Under the pieces are notes generated by a model. That model was not told the origin of the DNA. It made no database searches and was given only the letters and a program-made list of their open reading frames with translations. A stretch of DNA of 21,237 nt from a virus: IMG/VR virus record IMGVR_UViG_3300024344_000152, positions 1 to 21,237 of that record. One strand, given 5' to 3'. This document shows, piece after piece, positions 12,850 to 21,237 of this stretch. The position numbers and the translations under genes are program-made. Every line of letters starts with the position of its first letter. The stretch's first letter is position 1.

Positions 12850-13004
12850 GTATTATATTATTTTTAATAATTATCGGAATGATTATCATGTGGCATTGTG
12901 AGCCAAACTTGATGCGTGACATTGTTGCAAAAGGCAAAATGTATTACGATTTAGTAAAAAATAAAATGTCCGATATAAAGGCTTTATTTAAATCTAAGGG
13001 GTAA
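12846..13004 (+). CDS. Small single-pass membrane protein (52 aa)
   Basis: The ATG overlaps the methyltransferase stop (ATGA). The first 16 residues are almost purely Ile/Leu/Met/Phe (MSIILFLIIIGMIIMW), a membrane segment or signal anchor, followed by HCEPNLMRD and a Lys-rich amphipathic tail. No lipobox or cleavage motif is clear. It ends just before a 122-bp non-coding gap. The overlap and composition support a real gene. The function is unknown. Confidence 0.55.
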   Translation: MSIILFLIIIGMIIMWHCEPNLMRDIVAKGKMYYDLVKNKMSDIKALFKSKG

Positions 13005-13025
13005 CCTTTGTTTAAAGAAAGAAGT

Positions 13026-13058
13026 CCTCTCTAGCGCTCATATATGAGGTCTGAGAGG
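13026..13058 (+). other. Two-tier hairpin upstream of hsp20
   Basis: CCTCTC (13026-13031) pairs with GAGAGG (13053-13058), AG (13033-13034) with CT (13051-13052), and the 12-base perfect palindrome CTCATATATGAG (13037-13048) closes the structure with small internal mismatches. No T-run follows, so it does not look like an intrinsic terminator. It lies in the 122-bp gap between the 52-aa gene and hsp20. As DNA, the inner palindrome could also be an operator. I see no other gene or clear promoter in this gap. Confidence 0.55.
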
Positions 13059-13126
13059 CATTAACGAAGCGTACTCTTGATGGGTATGTTTTTAATATTA
13101 ATCTTGCTTATAATAAGGAGAAAATC

Positions 13127-13585
13127 ATGGTCAGAAAAAATGACTTTTATGGGACAGTAGATTTTAGAGATCCCATATTTTCATCATTGTTTGTAGGATT
13201 TGATAGTCTATTTGATAACATCTCTCAGATGTCTCAAGGTTCAAAAAGTCTACCAAGTTATCCGCCTTACAATGTACTACAAGACGGAGATGATTTCATA
13301 ATTGAAATTGCTCTTGCAGGAATAGCAAAAAAAGATCTTAACATAGAACTCCAAGAAAACACATTGTCAATTTCTTATGATTCTTCAAACGACATTGTTA
13401 ATGATGTTATCGAAGAGAATAAGATACTGCACAAAGGAATAGCACAGCGTTCTTTTAAAAGACAATTTACTTTATCAGAAGATATTGTAGTTGAGGGTGC
13501 TAGTTTTAAGGACGGAATGTTAAATATCTTTTTGAAAAAAGTTCTTCCTGAAGAAAAGAAACCAAAACAAATTAAAATTAAATAG
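13127..13585 (+). CDS. hsp20: Hsp20/alpha-crystallin family small heat-shock protein
   Basis: The 152-aa product starts at an ATG preceded by AAGGAG with seven bases of spacing. It has a short Phe-rich N-terminal arm (1-42), an alpha-crystallin domain (about 45-140) opening with YPPYNVLQDGDDFIIEIALAG, the conserved LHKGIAQRSFKRQF stretch (101-114) and GASFKDGMLNIFL (124-136) containing the family's GxL-like turn. The C-terminal tail ends KQIKIK, an I-x-I-type motif that docks into neighbouring subunits. The length is normal for bacterial IbpA-type and phage Hsp20 proteins. Hsp20 genes are known in marine myoviruses of cyanobacteria. It probably acts as an ATP-independent holdase in the host cytoplasm during virion assembly. 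The upstream hairpin may control its expression. Confidence 0.9.
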   Translation: MVRKNDFYGTVDFRDPIFSSLFVGFDSLFDNISQMSQGSKSLPSYPPYNVLQDGDDFIIEIALAGIAKKDLNIELQENTLSISYDSSNDIVNDVIEENKILHKGIAQRSFKRQFTLSEDIVVEGASFKDGMLNIFLKKVLPEEKKPKQIKIK

Positions 13586-13592
13586 TGACAAC

Positions 13593-13745
13593 GTGGAAAA
13601 GAACGACCATAGAAAATGGGTACATATTAATAAAGAGGAGCTTGTAACATTGACAAGCGACTTATATAGATATCGCTTAATGTTCCGAGTCCTTTTTGCC
13701 TATTTAATATTCGATGTTCTTATACACTTTGATTTGCTAACTTAA
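13593..13745 (+). CDS. Small protein with one membrane segment (50 aa, start uncertain)
   Basis: The frame runs to a TAA at 13743-13745. From GTG at 13593 it reads MEKNDHRKWVHINKEELVTL, then TSDLYRYR and a hydrophobic helix MFRVLFAYLIFDVLIHFDLL. The GTG start has no good Shine-Dalgarno sequence. An in-frame TTG at 13650 follows GAGGAG by nine bases and would give 31 aa. A short basic-aromatic segment before a Phe/Leu/Ile helix points to an inner-membrane peptide. It fills the gap between hsp20 and the exported-protein genes. I judge the coding frame likely but the start unresolved. Confidence 0.42.
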   Translation: MEKNDHRKWVHINKEELVTLTSDLYRYRLMFRVLFAYLIFDVLIHFDLLT

Positions 13746-13756
13746 TTTTTTATACT
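13729..13756 (+). promoter_or_regulatory. Possible sigma70-type promoter before the exported-protein genes
   Basis: TTGATT (13729-13734, 4 of 6 to -35) and TATACT (13751-13756, 5 of 6 to -10) are separated by 16 bp. The predicted start near 13763 would leave only about 11 bases before the ATG at 13774, just enough to hold the AGAGGGGG ribosome binding site. Such motifs are common by chance in A+T-rich DNA. Confidence 0.28.
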
Positions 13757-13773
13757 ACTAAAGAGGGGGCAGT

Positions 13774-14904
13774 ATGAAACAAAAACTTTTATTAGGAGCA
13801 TTGTTCATATCTGCTCTTTTCTTTGGTAATCCTGTTGTTGCCGATACACAAACTGGAACCTGTACCGCAGGCTCAGAGTATTGTGAAGCTAATTCGTTAA
13901 ATACTACTAATAGTACAACGACTACTAATACCAATACCAACACAAACACCAATACTAATACCAACACCAACACAAATACTAATAGTAATACAAACGTAAA
14001 TACTACTACGACTACTGGTACTAATACAAATACTAATACAAATAATAATACGAACACTAGTACAAATAATAATACAAATACCAGTACTTCGACAGCTACC
14101 AATACTAATAACAATACAAATGTTAATACAAATACAAATGCTAATACGAATGTAAATACTAATAATTCTACTAGTACTTCCAATGTTACTAGTAATTCTA
14201 CTAATACTAATAATAACAACAACAATAATGTAAATACATCTACTAGTAATAGTACAAGCAATAACACAAACAATAATAATAATACTAATAACAGTACTAG
14301 TAATAATACAAATACGAATACTAATGTAAATCAAAGTACATCTGATTCAACTGTTACTACAGATAATACAAACAATAACAACAATACTAATACTAGTACA
14401 TCCGACAACACTAATAGAAATATAAATGAGAGCAAGTCTGAACAGGTTATCACGCAAAATATCAATCAGAAAGCGCCGCCTGCTTCTGCGATTGCTCCTT
14501 CTATTATGAGTTATAGCCAAGACCTGTGTACAACCGGAGTAAGCGGTGCGTTTCAAGGACAGGTGTTTGGATTATCAGGAGGAAAAGCAGTTCGTGATGA
14601 GAATTGTGAGCGTTTAAAACTTTCTAAATATCTATATGATACTGGCATGAAAATAGCGGCAGTCGGAATACTTTGCCAAGATCCTAGAGTTTTTAAAGCA
14701 ATGCACATGGCAGGAACTCCTTGTCCTTACGAAGGCATGATAGGAGAAGAAGCTAAGACTGCATGGAGACAGAATCCTGAAGATAGACCAGACTATGAAG
14801 AAGCTAAAGATAGATACGTTAAAAGATGTAAAGCCGAAAAGACAGAAGGTAAGGTAAAGAAATCAAGGCTCACTTGTGTTAGAGAATTTAAAAACCAAAC
14901 TTAG
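13774..14904 (+). CDS. Exported Asn/Thr/Ser-rich low-complexity protein
   Basis: A strong GAGGGGG ribosome binding site precedes the ATG. Residues 1-23 form a classic signal peptide (MKQKLLLGALFISALFF ... VVA, cleavage expected before DTQ). A short Cys-containing segment (C30, C37) follows. Residues 42-214 consist almost only of Asn, Thr and Ser, mostly alternating NT, with N-x-S/T sequons throughout. The C-terminal domain (about 236-376) has six cysteines (252, 278, 301, 317, 352, 368) and recognisable segments MSYSQDLCTTGVSGAF and GGKAVRDENCERLKLSKYLY. I recall this Cys-containing domain from uncharacterised marine phage proteins. The even cysteine count and signal peptide suggest a disulfide-bonded periplasmic or envelope protein, which is unusual for a phage. 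The next gene overlaps its 3' end by 29 bases. Function unknown. Confidence 0.75.
   Translation: MKQKLLLGALFISALFFGNPVVADTQTGTCTAGSEYCEANSLNTTNSTTTTNTNTNTNTNTNTNTNTNTNSNTNVNTTTTTGTNTNTNTNNNTNTSTNNNTNTSTSTATNTNNNTNVNTNTNANTNVNTNNSTSTSNVTSNSTNTNNNNNNNVNTSTSNSTSNNTNNNNNTNNSTSNNTNTNTNVNQSTSDSTVTTDNTNNNNNTNTSTSDNTNRNINESKSEQVITQNINQKAPPASAIAPSIMSYSQDLCTTGVSGAFQGQVFGLSGGKAVRDENCERLKLSKYLYDTGMKIAAVGILCQDPRVFKAMHMAGTPCPYEGMIGEEAKTAWRQNPEDRPDYEEAKDRYVKRCKAEKTEGKVKKSRLTCVREFKNQT
13897..14415 (+). repeat. Degenerate Asn-Thr codon repeat tract
   Basis: About 170 codons alternate AAY with ACN or AGT in a mostly 6-bp rhythm. All four Thr codons and both Asn codons are used and mixed, so the DNA is not a clean tandem repeat even though the protein is. 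Long open frames on the opposite strand here (Val/Leu- or Ile/Ser/Cys-rich) are by-products of this composition. Confidence 0.9.
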
Positions 14905-17071
14905 TTTATTTATAGGTTCTCTTTTATTATCCTTTAATCTAAGTGCTAATGAATGGACCACAGGAACCAATAGTATTCTCGATCTGAGAAACTATACCGA
15001 AACTACTCAATATAATTTAGGCGATGACAGTCGATCGGGTGCGGTCGGCATAGGATTTGATTTTGATTTTTACAACCAGACATACACCCAAGGCTATATT
15101 TCTACTAATGGTTGTTTTTCTTTCACCACAGCGTATTGCAACGACTATACACCTGATCCCTTACCTGACACGAATCATACCATCTATCCTTTTTGGACTG
15201 ATCTTATAAGAGATAACGGATCTAAAATACTTTCTAAAAAATTTGAGGTTGATGGTGCAAATGATTACTTTGTTGTTGGATGGTACAATCTTCGTGAGTA
15301 TAACCGATCATCTGATAACACCTTTGAATTACTTCTTTATGAAAATAATTCAGCCATAGAATTTCGATATGGCGATTTAGATATTATAAATCACGATGTA
15401 CTTATAGGACTTCAAGGGACAAGTACAGAGTATACACAATATTTATTCCACGATGAATGTAATACAGGAACTACAAATGTGGCAGGAACCTGTGTTAATA
15501 CTAACTGGAATAATAGTAACTTTAATACTCTACTAGAAAATAAATCTTTATCTTATAGTAATCAATGCGCCATCAATCCTCTTAGTAGTACTGAATGTGC
15601 AGGCTATCAAGTAGCATACTTCACTCAGCAATGTGGTTTGAATCCTTTGTATGATAATGCTTGCGTTGGATACTGGCAGGCATTTGATGATCAGCAATGT
15701 GACTTAGATCCACAGTACGCACCTTTCTGTCCGGGATATACACAAGAGCAATCGGTAGCTTATTTTATAGCTGATGATTTTGATTATGGCTATGAAGAAG
15801 AGTACGACTATGGGTACGTAGAGGAAGAATATTTTTGGGAAGAGCCTCCTGAATATATAGAAGAGTTTTATGTAGAAGAATTTTATGAAGAGTTCTTGCC
15901 TGTAATGCTTGAAGAATATTCTGATGCACCAATTTGGCTAGCTCCTTCCGAAGAATTTATTCCTTTTGAAGAACTAGTATATATGGTAGAGGAAGAACTT
16001 CCTGAAAGTATGGAAGACTTACCAATCTTTGAAGAAGAAATGTTAGATTCTATATTAGACTTTGAAGAATATGATTTAAGTTACATGGCTCAAGCTCATC
16101 CGTCTCAGGGAATAGGAAGAGAAGCTCTTATAGAAGAAGCAGAAAGATTAATTTTAAGAGAAGCTCCTATAGACGAACCCATAGAAGAAGCTATAGAGTT
16201 TGAAAGCATTGAAGAATTAGAAGAACAACTAGAAGAGTTTGAAGAATTAGAAGAAGAGATAGAAGAATTAGAAGAAGAGATAGAAGAAGAAGAACTTGAA
16301 GAAGATGAAAAAGAAAATAAGATCGAGCAACAATTAAAAGTAGTACAAGGCACAATGCTTACCGCAATTAATAGTGTTAGTGGCACAACCGCAGGGACTT
16401 CCTTGCACTCCACAGGCACTTCGAGGGCATCAGGCGGCACATCCTCTAGCACAACAACATCAGCAAGTGTGTCTGGTTCTACTGGTAGCGGAATATCTTT
16501 TTCAAGTTCGCCTTCTATCTCTGCACAAATTGTTAGTTCTGCGGTACAGACACAACAAGTATTAACAATGAGTTCTGCTGTAGATACTGGTGCACAATCT
16601 TCAATGGGAGCTACGTCAGAAGCGACAACAGTAGCCAGTATGGACACAGGAACTTCAGAGGTTATGACGACAGAAACAGCCAGTACAACTGTAGATACTT
16701 CTGTTGCAAGCACAGAAAGCACAGAGACTGCTGTAGTAGAAACTTCAGAACAACCAACACAAACTGTTGCACAGAATATAAAACAACAGCAACAAGAAAT
16801 GGAAGAACAGCAATCTGAGACAGGAGAATACGCAGACTCTTCTGAATTAATTGCTATCATGGGAACTGTAGAAGGATTTGATGTATATAGAACAGCATCA
16901 ATGCCTCCTCAACCTACATGGTATGAGCCAAAAGATATTTATGCGAGCGCAGTATTGCCTGATAATGTTAGAGCATTTGCAGGTTTAGCTTCTGCAAGTA
17001 TAAATCAATTAACAAATATGAGAAACTTACAACCAAACTTAGACGGAGGAAATCATGGAATGGTTAAATAA
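14876..17071 (+). CDS. Exported nidogen-like protein with Cys repeats, Glu-rich and Ser/Thr-rich segments
   Basis: The 731-aa product begins at a GTG at 14876 (AAGG seven bases upstream) inside the previous gene. This is the only start that keeps the signal peptide KTKLSLFIGSLLLSFNLSA (6-24). Residues ~50-195 match a nidogen-like/extracellular beta domain: IGFDFDFYNQTYTQGYISTN (59-78), PFWTDLI (105-111), YFVVGWYN (131-138) and the TFELLLYENNSAIEF segment (149-163). Three Cys repeats follow (230-288). Residues ~300-485 are extremely Glu-rich with aromatic residues and end in a probable coiled coil. Residues ~495-650 are Ser/Thr/Ala-rich. The C-terminus contains MPPQPTWYEPKDIY, which I associate with marine phage proteins. 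It lies between two other envelope-type genes and overlaps both. It looks like a modular secreted adhesin-like protein, either displayed on the host or part of the particle. Its role is unknown. Confidence 0.75.
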   Translation: MLENLKTKLSLFIGSLLLSFNLSANEWTTGTNSILDLRNYTETTQYNLGDDSRSGAVGIGFDFDFYNQTYTQGYISTNGCFSFTTAYCNDYTPDPLPDTNHTIYPFWTDLIRDNGSKILSKKFEVDGANDYFVVGWYNLREYNRSSDNTFELLLYENNSAIEFRYGDLDIINHDVLIGLQGTSTEYTQYLFHDECNTGTTNVAGTCVNTNWNNSNFNTLLENKSLSYSNQCAINPLSSTECAGYQVAYFTQQCGLNPLYDNACVGYWQAFDDQQCDLDPQYAPFCPGYTQEQSVAYFIADDFDYGYEEEYDYGYVEEEYFWEEPPEYIEEFYVEEFYEEFLPVMLEEYSDAPIWLAPSEEFIPFEELVYMVEEELPESMEDLPIFEEEMLDSILDFEEYDLSYMAQAHPSQGIGREALIEEAERLILREAPIDEPIEEAIEFESIEELEEQLEEFEELEEEIEELEEEIEEEELEEDEKENKIEQQLKVVQGTMLTAINSVSGTTAGTSLHSTGTSRASGGTSSSTTTSASVSGSTGSGISFSSSPSISAQIVSSAVQTQQVLTMSSAVDTGAQSSMGATSEATTVASMDTGTSEVMTTETASTTVDTSVASTESTETAVVETSEQPTQTVAQNIKQQQQEMEEQQSETGEYADSSELIAIMGTVEGFDVYRTASMPPQPTWYEPKDIYASAVLPDNVRAFAGLASASINQLTNMRNLQPNLDGGNHGMVK
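15563..15739 (+). repeat. Triplicated Cys-x-Gly-Tyr peptide repeat
   Basis: Three consecutive units of about 22 residues share the pattern Q-C-x-x-[N/D]-P-x5-C-x-G-Y (QCAINP/ECAGY, QCGLNP/ACVGY, QCDLDP/FCPGY). Each unit has two cysteines, suggesting one disulfide per unit. The nucleotide sequences of the units differ considerably. Confidence 0.8.
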
Positions 17072-17441
17072 TAGACTTGGACAAATTATTGCAGGCGTTA
17101 CAGTAGCAGGAACATTAGCAGGTTTCGGCTATGAAGGCGCTCAAACAATTAACAGGATTGATAATATAGAAAGTGCAACGAATGAATACATAACTGCTGT
17201 AGATGGAATGGCAGATACAATGGTTGAGCTAGAAAAGAAAATGGCAGTCATTGATGAACAATTAAAATCTTTAGATGTTCCTGATATAGGAGCAATTGAA
17301 AAAGATATAGTAGCTTTGAAAGCACATGGACATCCTGCACAAGCGATGCCTGATCTATCAGGAATTAAAGAAGATATAGCAGTTCTTAAAACAACTGTTG
17401 AATCTTTAAAGAATAAAGACGCTAATCCTTTAGCTAATTAA
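17055..17441 (+). CDS. Membrane-anchored coiled-coil protein (128 aa)
   Basis: The ATG follows GGAGG by about six bases and overlaps the end of the nidogen-like gene by 17 bases. An N-terminal hydrophobic, Gly-rich helix (about 9-27) acts as a signal anchor, followed by helices with heptad-like spacing (about 33-120). There is an internal repeat: PDIGAIEKDIVALKA (76-90) resembles PDLSGIKEDIAVLKT (99-113). It ends with a TAA that overlaps the stop codon of the opposite-strand gene. It is the third in a run of envelope-directed genes and probably works with them, perhaps as an envelope-spanning connector. Function unknown. Confidence 0.68.
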   Translation: MEWLNNRLGQIIAGVTVAGTLAGFGYEGAQTINRIDNIESATNEYITAVDGMADTMVELEKKMAVIDEQLKSLDVPDIGAIEKDIVALKAHGHPAQAMPDLSGIKEDIAVLKTTVESLKNKDANPLAN

Positions 17442-18151
17442 TTATGGCTATGTCTGTTTATGTCTTTGGCAAAATCAGGCACAGGTAAATCTTCTTCTTT
17501 AAAGTCAGATAGTTTAATCCATTTAATCTTGCCTTCTTTTTCTAATTGAAGGGCATGATCTCTTTCAACAGTAATTCCGGTGTGTGGGTTGTCTGTTTCA
17601 ATAGGAGTATCTAAGCGTGGCTTATGCCAACTATGCGGTCTTCCTGATCCTACCTTATTTGAATAGGTCTTAGCAAAGAAATCAAAACCTATTAGTGTAA
17701 GGCTTTTATAAGCAGGAAGTTTTCTTGTGAAAAAAAGAAGGGAGATAAAACCTTGGGAAGGTCTGGGTGAGTGCAGATCAGGATCTGTAAAATTAAACTC
17801 TTTATAAATCTGATCTAGTTCTTTATCCGAATACATATTAACATGTGGGAAATTTGGAAGCTTGTTTTGTTTTATTTCTTTATCTAAATAAATTCTACTT
17901 CTATTAAACAATCTGACTTGGGCATCAGAAAATTTCATAAACATATGTCTTCTTAATATTCCAGTCTGCCAAATATCTGTGCGCTTTCCTATAGCATGTT
18001 CTATTGCAGGTGTTGGGAATCCTTTACCAAATCTTACAATCGTATCATAAGAGTCTATTAGTTCTCCGTTATTGTATTGCAGAATCTCTACTGAGTTTCC
18101 TACAAGAATAACATCTTTATTTATTACTAAATTTTTTAGCGCGTTTTGCAT
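17438..18151 (-). CDS. GT29 (sialyltransferase-like) glycosyltransferase
   Basis: The 237-aa protein has no signal peptide or membrane segment and reaches catalytic motifs at once. A sialylmotif L-like stretch begins DVILVGNSVEILQYNNG (13-29) and continues LIDSYDTIVRFGKG (31-44). A motif S-like stretch spans 128-159 (SPRPSQGFISLLFF, then LTLIGFDFF). H199-x4-E204 in DHALQLEKEG fits the VS motif. These features are those of CAZy family GT29, found in bacteria and marine phages; the natural donor may be CMP-sialic acid or another CMP-keto sugar. It is the last gene of the minus-strand operon; its start overlaps the preceding SDR-like gene by 35 bases, and its stop shares bases with the stop of the convergent gene. 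The acceptor is unknown. Confidence 0.8.
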   Translation of the reverse strand: MQNALKNLVINKDVILVGNSVEILQYNNGELIDSYDTIVRFGKGFPTPAIEHAIGKRTDIWQTGILRRHMFMKFSDAQVRLFNRSRIYLDKEIKQNKLPNFPHVNMYSDKELDQIYKEFNFTDPDLHSPRPSQGFISLLFFTRKLPAYKSLTLIGFDFFAKTYSNKVGSGRPHSWHKPRLDTPIETDNPHTGITVERDHALQLEKEGKIKWIKLSDFKEEDLPVPDFAKDINRHSHN

Positions 18152-18629
18152 TTTGGATCTGTTTATAATTAGCAGGATGCTGAATAGTTATATCTGGAAC
18201 ATCTAAATCAGAATTGATAATAGATTCAATAGTGTCTGCTACGTCTTGATAAGAGATACTTGGTAATGTTCTGTGTCGCATTAATCCTAAATTAAGAGTA
18301 GATACTTTACAAACCTTATTAGAATTGTATACAATGTTATTTGTATAATGATTCAATGCGGCTTTCTGAGAAGCATAGAGATAACCTTTAGATATATTAG
18401 GCTGAGAAGCTCTTGAAGAAATATTAATTATGTGCTTGTCTGTTTGCTTACGCCATTTATTAAAATATAAATCTAATAATTCAACCTGTTTAAAATCTTT
18501 ATGTTCACAGTTAATGAGTATGTTATCTTCTACTGGTTCTTCCAGTAATTTATAAACGCTATAATACTTAGCGTCTTTAAAGTATTTACTTAGGTATACT
18601 GCTAGTCCGTATGTTCCTGATATTATCAT
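18117..18629 (-). CDS. Minimal short-chain dehydrogenase/reductase-like protein
   Basis: The 170-aa protein is short compared with the usual ~250 aa of SDRs, yet shows the order of SDR landmarks: a reduced dinucleotide loop SGTYGLA (4-10), a strand NILINCEH in the place of the NNAG motif (36-43), the catalytic serine in INISSRAS (68-75), the catalytic Y85-x3-K89 in YASQKAALNHY, and a strand STLNLGLM (109-116) where PG is expected. The usual helices between strands appear trimmed. Its start overlaps the stop of the radical SAM gene as ATGA. It may reduce or oxidise a nucleotide sugar or a modified product of its neighbours. The glycine-rich loop is weak, so cofactor binding is uncertain. It could instead be a non-enzymatic relic of the fold. 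Confidence 0.68.
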   Translation of the reverse strand: MIISGTYGLAVYLSKYFKDAKYYSVYKLLEEPVEDNILINCEHKDFKQVELLDLYFNKWRKQTDKHIINISSRASQPNISKGYLYASQKAALNHYTNNIVYNSNKVCKVSTLNLGLMRHRTLPSISYQDVADTIESIINSDLDVPDITIQHPANYKQIQNAKRAKKFSNK

Positions 18630-19513
18630 ATGTTATTCATAATTAAATCAAAAGATTTTTTTCCAAACAACGTACCATCAACACTACATTTATTACAAGG
18701 AGACATCTCTCTGTTTCCTTTAGCTAGTTTGCGTCTGATTTTATTCATAGGCTTACTAAACCAAACATCTTCTAGGGTTTGTTGTTGTAAGTTTCCAACT
18801 ATATGTTCTCTTCCCCAATCATTAGAGCAGAAAAGAACATCCCCATTCCAGTCAACAAACATTTTATAGAACGGATAGTGGCATGGTTTTCCTTTCAATG
18901 CTTCTACCTCACTCTTATCAATACCAATCCAATCAATAGTTCCGCTACGATTGTTAAGAAACAATCCATAATCTTCTTCGCTATAGTGCATTCTATATTT
19001 ATATTTGGAGCCATCAAAATGTTTCATTTGATCTTGAAAGATTTTTATTTGTTCTATGCCATCATATAAATTTATATAAAGCAAGTCGAGTCCGCTATTA
19101 AATAATCTTTTAGCATAGTCTGTTGTAAGTTTGTCTCCGTTTGTATTACATTCAAGAGTAGCGTCTGGTAAGTATAGGCGGAAACGAAATATAATTTCAG
19201 GGAATTTAGGATTAAGAAAATTTTCTCCGAACCCACTAAAAGAAATCTTTCCTTTATAATTATTTCTTCCTAGTTCTTTTGCAATAGCTTCTGCACCTTT
19301 GGGTGTCATGTGTAAGTTTCTATTTGGAAATACTTCTGGGTCGTGTCGGGGACAAAAGACACAGGTACGATTACAAAGTTCTGTGGTGTTTACTTCCACA
19401 GTAAGAATAGAGTCAAGAGGTTTTACTTCTTTAATTTTATTAAAGTGTTTTTCTTCTTGCTTTTTTCTGTGTTCGAGAAAACTTATTTTATTGTGTTGTG
19501 TACTCTGAGCCAT
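18626..19513 (-). CDS. Radical SAM enzyme with SPASM/twitch-like C-terminal domain
   Basis: The 295-aa product is called from ATG at 19513. An upstream in-frame TTG (19552) would only lengthen the overlap with the GT8-like gene. The radical SAM cluster motif is C47-x3-C51-x2-C54 (CNRTCVFC), followed by SGFGENFLNP (93-102), equivalent to the GGE/GEP SAM-binding motif, and ECNTNG (121-126). The C-terminal region has four cysteines, C211, C229, C273 and C276, in CHYPF, GDVLFCSNDWG and PCNKC contexts. This fits a SPASM/twitch domain holding one auxiliary 4Fe-4S cluster. The enzymes of this class act on peptides, sugars or aminoglycoside-like substrates. Its position between glycosyltransferase genes suggests a glycan or peptide substrate. 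The stop overlaps the SDR-like gene. Confidence 0.85.
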   Translation of the reverse strand: MAQSTQHNKISFLEHRKKQEEKHFNKIKEVKPLDSILTVEVNTTELCNRTCVFCPRHDPEVFPNRNLHMTPKGAEAIAKELGRNNYKGKISFSGFGENFLNPKFPEIIFRFRLYLPDATLECNTNGDKLTTDYAKRLFNSGLDLLYINLYDGIEQIKIFQDQMKHFDGSKYKYRMHYSEEDYGLFLNNRSGTIDWIGIDKSEVEALKGKPCHYPFYKMFVDWNGDVLFCSNDWGREHIVGNLQQQTLEDVWFSKPMNKIRRKLAKGNREMSPCNKCSVDGTLFGKKSFDLIMNNI

Positions 19514-20172
19514 TCTTCTGCGTAATCTACATTTGTATAATCTTTTAACCAAGGACCGCCATCTGTAAAGTGTACGGCTCTAGGTATCCTTGTATAAGGA
19601 AGATCTTTAAAATTATAATAACCTACTAGCATGTTGTATGCAACAGGAAGTTCTCCTATTTGATCATCACTATCTAACCATTTAAATCCATGCAGGTTTC
19701 CTGCTTCTGTTGTACTAACATAATCAATATTTAATCGTTTACATTTTTCATTATTAAAGTACATAAGACTTGACCAATACTTTTTATCGTAAGGTCTATT
19801 TGTTTTATCCATCATCTTACCATGAGGACGTGTAACTAATTGAGGATGCTTAACTACATGGACTGCATGGTCATCTTCACAACATATGCTTGCGTAATCA
19901 GCAATCTCTTCAGGATCACAGCGCCAAAGAAAATCAACATCACAAAATAAAGCATGACCTTTAAAGTTGCAGAGGTGAGGAACGAGGAAACGAGTGAACG
20001 CAAAGTCTGTAGACTCTCCTTGAACTGGTCGGTAATACATCTTAGCATTTTCTAAATCTTTTTTTATCAATGGTATAATTTCATGTTTGTTATTCGATCT
20101 ATTTTCAATAGAGCGTTTACAAACTTCATAAACTTCGGGGTAATAAGAATCGTAACCTATAAAAATTTTCAT
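19483..20172 (-). CDS. GT8-like glycosyltransferase (GT-A fold)
   Basis: The 229-aa protein begins MKIFIGYDSYYPEVYEVC, the usual nucleotide-sugar-binding start of this family, and carries the metal-binding DVD motif at 78-80 in HALFCDVDFLW. STDFAFTRFLVPHLC (54-68), YWSSLMYFNN and the NLHGFKWL region match the conserved layout of small GT8-like or 'putative glycosyltransferase' proteins found in bacteria and phages. No membrane segment is seen. It starts inside the stop of the 46-aa gene (ATGA overlap) and overlaps the radical SAM gene by about 30 bases. It probably transfers a hexose or similar sugar in the cytoplasm. Donor and acceptor are unknown. Confidence 0.83.
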   Translation of the reverse strand: MKIFIGYDSYYPEVYEVCKRSIENRSNNKHEIIPLIKKDLENAKMYYRPVQGESTDFAFTRFLVPHLCNFKGHALFCDVDFLWRCDPEEIADYASICCEDDHAVHVVKHPQLVTRPHGKMMDKTNRPYDKKYWSSLMYFNNEKCKRLNIDYVSTTEAGNLHGFKWLDSDDQIGELPVAYNMLVGYYNFKDLPYTRIPRAVHFTDGGPWLKDYTNVDYAEEWLRVHNTIK

Positions 20173-20309
20173 TCTTCTTTTTCCTTTTCTTCCATTCCTT
20201 TATTTAAAATATCTAAGATTTGCTTTTGATCTTCAATAGGTAAAGACCAAAAGAATCCTAGTATGTCTACGATTTTAGAGTCGTCACTCTTTTCAGGGGG
20301 TGAAGTCAT
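20169..20309 (-). CDS. Small acidic protein or peptide (46 aa) inside the modification operon
   Basis: The frame opens with ATG at 20309, preceded by AGGAG with five bases of spacing, the clearest ribosome binding site in this operon. It reads MTSPPEKSDDSKIVDILGFF, then WSLPIEDQKQILDILNKG, and ends EEKEKEE. It has no cysteine, no signal peptide and no membrane segment; the central part looks like one or two amphipathic helices with a Phe-Phe-Trp core. It overlaps the upstream oxygenase by 17 bases and the downstream glycosyltransferase as ATGA. Because it sits among modifying enzymes it could be a carrier or adapter peptide, or a substrate, but nothing in the sequence proves this. Confidence 0.6.
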   Translation of the reverse strand: MTSPPEKSDDSKIVDILGFFWSLPIEDQKQILDILNKGMEEKEKEE

Positions 20310-21036
20310 AGTATCTCCTGTCTAATGGTTTTTTATTTCCTTCTCCTAAAGGAATCGAAATAGATATTCTCGGTCCTTGAGGAATTGCTTTGTGATAAAG
20401 TCCAGTAGGTATATAAATCATATCTCCTACTGTCAATGTTTCATCATATCTTAATTGCATTTCTTTTTCTTGTTGTGCTGTTAAATTAGCAGGAGCATTC
20501 TTTCCTGCAAATACTCTATAAACTTTCCATCTTACTTTTCCTATGGCATGGACAAGAAAGTTATTATCACTATCTCTATGACAAGGGAATGTTAAAGCAT
20601 TCTTAATTGGTGAACAATATAAATGTGCGTCCGCCGCACTACCTTCAAACTGTCGCTCAACCGCACCGGAAAGAGCAGACATAGCAGGACTTATTAAAGA
20701 TGCTTTAGTTAATATAATACTACATCCTTGATTCCAGAGTTCGTGTATATATTTTTTATCAAAGTAATCTATCCTAGACCAACTAGGTTTCCTGCCTTTA
20801 TATGCGTTATTTTTTTCCATGCAAAGCTTTCCTTCAGGTGTAATTATTTGAAGTCCTGATACTGCTCTATCATTATGTATATAATCAGAAAGCTTTTCCC
20901 AAGTTATTATCTGGCTCATAATATCTTTGCGCATATCATTTGCTTTCACTATGAGAGGTTGTTTATTTTTATAATTACCTATAAACTCATCAACTGATAG
21001 GGGATGTATTAAGTCTGCAAAACTTATATCATACAT
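20293..21036 (-). CDS. JmjC/cupin-type 2-oxoglutarate Fe(II) oxygenase
   Basis: The 247-aa protein has the cupin-like fold pattern of JmjC hydroxylases (bacterial ROXA/YcfD-like or Cupin_4/Cupin_8 class). An iron-binding H153-x-D155 lies in TFPCHRDSDNNFLVHAIGKVRW, and the distal histidine is H215 in GDMIYIPTGLYHKA. The strand pair RWKVYR and RISISIPLGEG fits the barrel. An N-terminal helical part (HPLSVDEFIGNY ... QPLIV) resembles the 'fish-hook' lead-in typical of these enzymes. They hydroxylate proteins or small molecules using 2-oxoglutarate and oxygen. The first codons overlap the stop of the upstream partial gene by eight bases. The substrate is unknown; the adjacent 46-aa protein or glycan products are candidates only by position. 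Confidence 0.82.
   Translation of the reverse strand: MYDISFADLIHPLSVDEFIGNYKNKQPLIVKANDMRKDIMSQIITWEKLSDYIHNDRAVSGLQIITPEGKLCMEKNNAYKGRKPSWSRIDYFDKKYIHELWNQGCSIILTKASLISPAMSALSGAVERQFEGSAADAHLYCSPIKNALTFPCHRDSDNNFLVHAIGKVRWKVYRVFAGKNAPANLTAQQEKEMQLRYDETLTVGDMIYIPTGLYHKAIPQGPRISISIPLGEGNKKPLDRRYYDFTP
20315..20319 (-). promoter_or_regulatory. Strong Shine-Dalgarno sequence deciding the 46-aa gene
   Basis: AGGAG on the minus strand lies five bases before the ATG at 20309. It is within the end of the oxygenase gene, so it marks an independent translation start and is the main support for the 46-aa frame. Confidence 0.6.
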
Positions 21037-21237
21037 CCTTATATACCTTAGCGTCTAGTTCTATTTCTAATTTATTATGTATCTTATAAAATTCTTCTTT
21101 TGCTACACGAGTAATTGTTTGTAGTGTAGAATATGTAATTGGATTTAATTTAGATTCTATCACAGAGATGTCTGCAATACTTTGCTCAGTTGTAATTTTA
21201 CCTTTAGGATCAATAAGAACACTATAGCTTATTACGT
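21029..21237 (-). CDS. C-terminal end of an unidentified protein, start outside the window
   Basis: On the minus strand the frame is open from the right edge (first full codon at 21235) for 68 residues to a TGA that overlaps the oxygenase start. It reads VISYSVLIDPKGKITTEQSI, then ADISVIESKLNPI and a charged helical end (KLEIELDAKVYKDV). No family is recognised. The overlap shows it belongs to the same operon. Confidence 0.6.
   Translation of the reverse strand, partial: VISYSVLIDPKGKITTEQSIADISVIESKLNPITYSTLQTITRVAKEEFYKIHNKLEIELDAKVYKDV

Follow-up and report, generated by a model that had tools for sequence, protein, structure and literature searches.

A phage gene chain that joins a radical SAM-SDR pair and a GT8-GT29 pair and may remodel a sugar and build a glycan

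INTRODUCTION

Why would a phage chain together an oxygenase, a 46-aa protein, a radical S-adenosylmethionine enzyme (rSAM), a minimal short-chain dehydrogenase/reductase (SDR) and two different glycosyltransferases? The question is raised by the IMG/VR virus record IMGVR_UViG_3300024344_000152, whose positions 1 to 21,237 (the window, meaning the whole 21,237-nt stretch analyzed here) carry six minus-strand open reading frames (ORFs) and a partial one. An earlier note on this DNA read these genes as one coupled pathway that could build or modify a surface glycan, decorate proteins or modify the 46-aa protein (p46). We found that the chain consists of two nested conserved pairs, rSAM-SDR and GT8-GT29 (the latter two glycosyltransferases), accompanied by lineage-specific extras. 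Our tentative but quite plausible reading is that two glycan modules of phages are combined in this operon, in which rSAM-SDR would remodel a sugar and GT8-GT29 would build a glycan.

RESULTS AND DISCUSSION

The gene chain resolves into two nested pairs

All ORFs were found at their positions and the overlaps were recomputed, which confirmed that the chain overlaps at every junction, by 4–35 nt when rSAM is read from ATG 19513 (Table 1). GT29 and SDR share 35 nt, SDR and rSAM 4 nt (ATGA), rSAM and GT8 31 nt (70 nt from the alternative start at 19552), GT8 and p46 4 nt, p46 and the JmjC gene 17 nt, and the JmjC gene and the partial ORF 8 nt; the 3′ end of GT29 also shares 4 nt with a convergent plus-strand gene. 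Since the window proteins recur at 100% identity in two other IMG/VR contigs (3300009481_000089 and 3300002231_000115), misassembly is argued against. Compared to relatives in the window's clade, the enzymes have ratios of nonsynonymous to synonymous substitution rates (dN/dS) of 0.07–0.16, indicating purifying selection. Megablast of the whole window against cultured phages gave zero matches, and a scan for sigma-70 promoters and terminators found sites no commoner than in shuffled sequence.

Loci anchored on rSAM were collected first; among them, the rSAM and SDR families were found in 87 and 86 loci, and GT8 and GT29 in 36 each. Because single window proteins had served as anchors at that stage, the pair statistics were rerun from SDR-anchored and GT29-anchored scans. 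Going upstream from SDR, the first profiled gene is rSAM in 74 of the 80 SDR-anchored loci (53 distinct SDR sequences); the remaining six begin at a contig edge, so all 74 loci with room have rSAM. Most of these pairs overlap, and ThyX or small ORFs intervene in some. Similarly, a GT8-like gene lies upstream of GT29 in 74 of the 80 GT29-anchored loci, 48 of which are GT8-GT29 and 26 GT8-rSAM-SDR-GT29 in order; the other six begin at most 1.4 kb from GT29, hence the pair is complete in 74/74 loci with room.

The nesting is visible at empty sites. Locus L154 carries GT8-GT29 where group B phages carry GT8-rSAM-SDR-GT29, and L412 carries PhoH-UvsW where L240 carries PhoH-rSAM-SDR-UvsW; on contig G187, both pairs are present, ∼13 kb apart. 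The earlier note had named single genes at scattered loci of homologous phages as evidence against its reading, and this is partly borne out. The module does split, yet into fixed pairs and not into single genes; one coupled pathway does not hold for all six genes, and relatives have the two pairs together or apart.

Sequence and structure matches of the four enzymes

The enzyme identities proposed before hold up, GT8 being the weakest of them. For rSAM, Pfam reported radical SAM (1.6e-13) and SPASM (6.6e-15) domains. Among 20 aligned relatives, with a mean column identity of 64%, the CxxxCxxC motif (C45, C49 and C52) and four C-terminal cysteines that may hold one auxiliary [4Fe-4S] cluster (C209, C227, C271 and C274) are all invariant; residues are numbered from the aligned fragment, which begins two codons past the ATG. 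Four conserved C-terminal cysteines are twitch-like, a full SPASM domain has a larger cysteine set. By profile comparison, BtrN was the sole solved relative (1e-25; PDB 4m7s and 4m7t). BtrN is a twitch radical-SAM alcohol dehydrogenase with four cysteine ligands to its auxiliary cluster; in butirosin biosynthesis, it oxidizes the hydroxyl of an aminocyclitol, 2-deoxy-scyllo-inosamine (PMC9012708). Likeness to BtrN covers the radical SAM and twitch regions over most of the length, the CxxxCxxC motif and the first two auxiliary cysteines, which align cleanly. Different from BtrN, which is far in sequence and belongs to the butirosin pathway, the phage enzyme has a mini-SDR as its partner.

The SDR has catalytic Ser72, Tyr85 and Lys89 (YxxxK), invariant in the alignment. 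By itself the window protein falls under the Pfam cut-off; all 23 of its relatives match adh_short at E ≤ 0.1, with 1e-6 as the best value. The predicted structure, with a mean pLDDT (predicted local distance difference test) of 89.4, would be a Rossmann fold and matches solved SDRs, although at 170 residues the protein is shorter than these (212–275 residues). Structure predictions were built on alignments of 14 and 23 sequences. Radical SAM chemistry followed by an SDR has a precedent in apramycin biosynthesis, where AprD4 and the NAD(P)-dependent reductase AprD3 act in series on a sugar; AprD4, unlike the dehydrogenase proposed for the phage rSAM, is a dehydratase.

GT29 scored just above the Pfam cut-off (3.3e-5, 23.9 bits versus 23), and all 14 aligned relatives, 56% identical on average, match the same family. 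Using its model (pLDDT 72.7), a Foldseek search of the PDB gave 29 matches with E ≤ 0.001, all of which are sialyltransferases, and several of them hold CMP, CDP, CTP or CMP-sialic acid. The predicted fold therefore resembles that of GT29 sialyltransferases (2wnb, 5bo9 and 6apl), with CMP-bound structures among the best matches; the phage enzyme differs in its small size (237 residues) and shares 12–17% identity with the solved ones, and its use of a CMP-sugar donor is predicted. The GT8-like protein strongly matches the unannotated phrog_28018 (1.5e-48). A gene convergent to GT29 in group B phages encodes a Coq4-like protein (L085 4358-5020; Pfam 1.1e-7).

The rSAM-SDR pair is spread among unrelated phages

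Relatives of rSAM are encoded in 359 IMG/VR stretches, and the rSAM-SDR pair occurs in hundreds of sequences of uncultured, mostly marine phages, some of them from lineages with no other relationship. The searched collection of cultured phages held no relative above 30% identity, and where Campylobacter and Synechococcus phages gave rSAM matches below that value, the adjoining genes gave no SDR-profile match. Between phages with almost nothing else in common, rSAM keeps ∼70% identity. For instance, G182, of the window's clade with an SU10-type portal (podovirus), and G188, T4-like by gene content, have only two reciprocal matches, rSAM (67%) and SDR (50%). Such identity across dissimilar phages points to a function that is transferable between ocean phages and under strong selection.

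In the rSAM tree, the sequences from phages group in a single clade (support 97/92), and the nearest sequence comes from a marine alphaproteobacterial single-cell contig; the branching order of the chromosomal sequences is unsure owing to long branches. Only 4 of 385 sampled genomes of that contig's class matched rSAM below 1e-45, including G001 and G002, from which L092 and L093 come; chromosomal copies are thus rare. None of the bacterial genomes G001-G003 gave a match to the SDR profile built from phages, and its two matches, in G004 and G005, sit on phage-like contigs within metagenome-assembled genomes.

A description of the rSAM-SDR pair was not found in the literature searched (the CC-licensed PMC subset). 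PMC7029224 and PMC9599517 describe cassettes of glycan genes and partner auxiliary metabolic genes in pelagimyophages and pelagiphages; these resemble the present system in their GT8 genes, radical SAM cassettes and paired auxiliary genes moved between phage families, whereas an rSAM-SDR pair nested in GT8-GT29 was not found in the passages covered.

Several other genes were observed around the pair. Some group E contigs have a second, divergent radical SAM gene before PhoH (L220 959-1951 and L240 905-1957; profile score ∼100). Many group C phages encode a DruA-like (Druantia) protein upstream of rSAM-SDR (L031 1784-2920; Pfam 2e-10), and near the pair in group C phages lies a protein that by eye resembles the CHASE2/adenylate-cyclase type (L036 1033-2883).

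Chromosomal rSAM relatives sit in surface-sugar clusters

The chromosomal rSAM relatives are located in surface-sugar clusters, mostly beside an NAD(P) oxidoreductase. L358 is surrounded by NeuB (8.5e-40), NeuC/Epimerase_2 (5e-86) and a CBS nucleotidyltransferase, and L361 by a NeuA-like cytidylyltransferase and a KdsA-like synthase; in L360, a KdsB-like cytidylyltransferase and a HAD phosphatase are directly followed by rSAM and SDR. L093 and L094 have a SIS_2/HAD sugar cluster that includes a GT8 homologue. An SDR or Gfo/Idh/MocA enzyme directly adjoins rSAM in L093, L094, L358, L359, L360 and L361 (the neighbours in L093 and L359 come from sequence reading, and L092 ends short of the relevant side).

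We also looked for CMP-sugar synthetase-family cytidylyltransferases in the phages, and found them in 4 of 35 rSAM-SDR contigs versus 0 of 7 GT8-GT29-only contigs; with partial contigs, some of them maybe near-copies, these numbers are too small for an association. L178, which carries rSAM-SDR, was counted in the former group. In G188, the cytidylyltransferase gene overlaps an ORF that by eye resembles a HAD phosphatase.

Proposed function and competing explanations

The earlier idea of a surface glycan or of protein decoration holds up as a proposal, and we word it as follows. rSAM would act on a sugar or nucleotide sugar and oxidize one of its hydroxyls to a ketone, the type of reaction that BtrN carries out on 2-deoxy-scyllo-inosamine. 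SDR would then use NAD(P)H to reduce or otherwise process the ketone, and an epimerized or otherwise altered sugar would result. The substrate would most likely be a sialic-acid-like or Kdo-like (CMP-ulosonate-type) sugar. GT8-GT29 would build a glycan, with GT29 adding the CMP-activated sugar, and the acceptor may be either a glycan on the surface of the host or Ser/Thr-rich proteins of the phage itself. If sialic-acid-like sugars are indeed remodelled, infection would be linked to glycosylation of the virion or to the surface glycome of the host, and the system would offer new radical sugar chemistry.

Several observations weigh against this proposal. CMP-sugar synthetase-family genes occur in only the 4 rSAM-SDR contigs counted above, and the contigs searched from the window's clade, of 36 and 56 kb, yielded none. 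The nearest chromosomal rSAM relatives are 47–56% identical, few are that close and the others were detected by profile only; among them, L362 has no adjacent oxidoreductase, and the cluster of L093 and L094 looks like heptose-type, not ulosonate-type, chemistry. In the BtrN alignment, the final CxxC is offset and lies in low-confidence columns. The GT8 label is the weakest of the identities: the window protein has no Pfam match and falls outside Glyco_transf_8, which was detected weakly in 2 of 17 relatives (best 2.6e-4).

The gene neighbourhood of rSAM-SDR fits nucleotide modification too, as the pair often lies among nucleotide-metabolism and replication genes; in several lineages it is beside ribonucleotide reductase, ThyX, PhoH, DNA polymerase or a UvsW-like helicase (partly from sequence reading). 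The pair might thus serve nucleotide or DNA-base hypermodification, with the glycosyltransferases adding sugars to modified bases. Given the surface-sugar clusters around the chromosomal relatives, the CMP-sialic acid transferase-like fold of GT29 and the resemblance of rSAM to BtrN, we find this hardly probable. We give slightly less credit still to an accessory cassette that serves host metabolism and has nothing to do with glycans, in which adjacency merely follows from modular phage genomes: the two pairs can come apart and are inserted at various places, but every locus with room keeps rSAM and SDR together, and the chromosomal relatives are mostly oxidoreductase-paired too, within sugar clusters. 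That rSAM modifies p46 as a ribosomally synthesized and post-translationally modified peptide (RiPP) is very improbable. p46 is small and stands in the same gene chain; however, it is confined to the window's clade while rSAM occurs in hundreds of loci, so it cannot be a general rSAM substrate. The four C-terminal cysteines are also fewer than in a full SPASM domain, and no NCBIfam maturase model matched rSAM at its own cut-off.

A different acceptor has better prospects, although we still judge it somewhat unlikely: the glycosyltransferases might modify Ser/Thr-rich tail or fibre proteins of the phage itself instead of the host surface, with rSAM-SDR tailoring the capping sugar. Counted as those with a 100-residue stretch of 45% Ser+Thr or more, Ser/Thr-rich proteins are encoded in 78 of 87 GT8-GT29 loci (at least 7 kb long) versus 0 of 24 rSAM-SDR-only loci, and in 36 of 43 versus 0 of 20 after removal of identical-marker loci. 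Both convergent neighbours in the window are of this kind and are, speculatively, glycosylation acceptors. The cultured phage DLP6, from another lineage and with an overlapping GT8-GT29 pair (AAY80_201/202), has a baseplate protein with 53% Ser+Thr, in a genome of which ∼18 kb was read only partly or not at all. Phages with glycosyltransferases have been suggested to glycosylate their own capsids (PMC11256854). However, Thr-rich fibres occur also without nearby GT8-GT29 (L378 and L382), so the association may merely track phage lineage, and virion glycosylation is therefore kept as a rival to the two-module proposal. A bolder version, which we consider unlikely, combines the two: the phage-specific rSAM-SDR, passed on as one unit between marine phages that are not related, would make a new CMP-ulosonate-type sugar, and in phages that also have GT8-GT29 this sugar would cap O-glycans of their Ser/Thr-rich fibres to form a phage-encoded mucin-like coat. 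With DLP6 in culture, half of the system is testable.

Accessory genes and neighbours in the window

JmjC and p46 are lineage-specific accessories outside the two-pair pattern. The oxygenase matches JmjC_2 in Pfam (1.6e-13), and its HxD...H iron-ligand residues are invariant among relatives. Its nearest solved structures are NO66 (1e-10) and the ribosomal L16 hydroxylase (3e-5); as the solved relatives found are protein hydroxylases, a role as Kdo hydroxylase was rejected. Outside the window's clade, 7 of 54 JmjC loci have at least SDR, and usually no rSAM-SDR is nearby, a distribution by which JmjC as an obligate partner of the pair was rejected as well. The partial ORF is 76 aa where complete (L002/L086).

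Table 1. Features in the window
Feature	Coordinates	Strand	Evidence or remark
Ser/Thr/Asn-rich protein, apparent signal peptide (by eye)	13774..14904	+	Convergent to operon; 53% Ser+Thr in densest 100 residues
731-aa protein with Ser/Thr-rich domain	14876..17071	+	50% Ser+Thr in densest 100 residues
GT29 (sialyltransferase-family) glycosyltransferase, 237 aa	17438..18151	-	Pfam GT29, Foldseek
Minimal SDR, 170 aa	18117..18629	-	Alignment, structure model
Predicted twitch-type radical SAM enzyme (rSAM), 295 aa	18626..19513	-	Pfam; alternative TTG start 19552
GT8-like glycosyltransferase, 229 aa, DxD (D78, D80)	19483..20172	-	phrog_28018, position 5′ of GT29
46-aa protein (p46), no function assigned	20169..20309	-	ORF
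JmjC_2 2-oxoglutarate/Fe(II) oxygenase, 247 aa, H153-x-D155...H215	20293..21036	-	Pfam
Small partial ORF, cut by contig end, no function assigned	21029..21237	-	phrog_27180 (7.5e-5)

In the 731-aa protein, a long Glu-rich stretch precedes the Ser/Thr-rich domain. An overlapping gene pair, with no function assigned, was seen near Thr-rich repeat proteins in several phage lineages; its group B relatives gave no Pfam match, and copies lie in G182 (12974-14558), G187 (40026-41601) and L378 (4510-6097).

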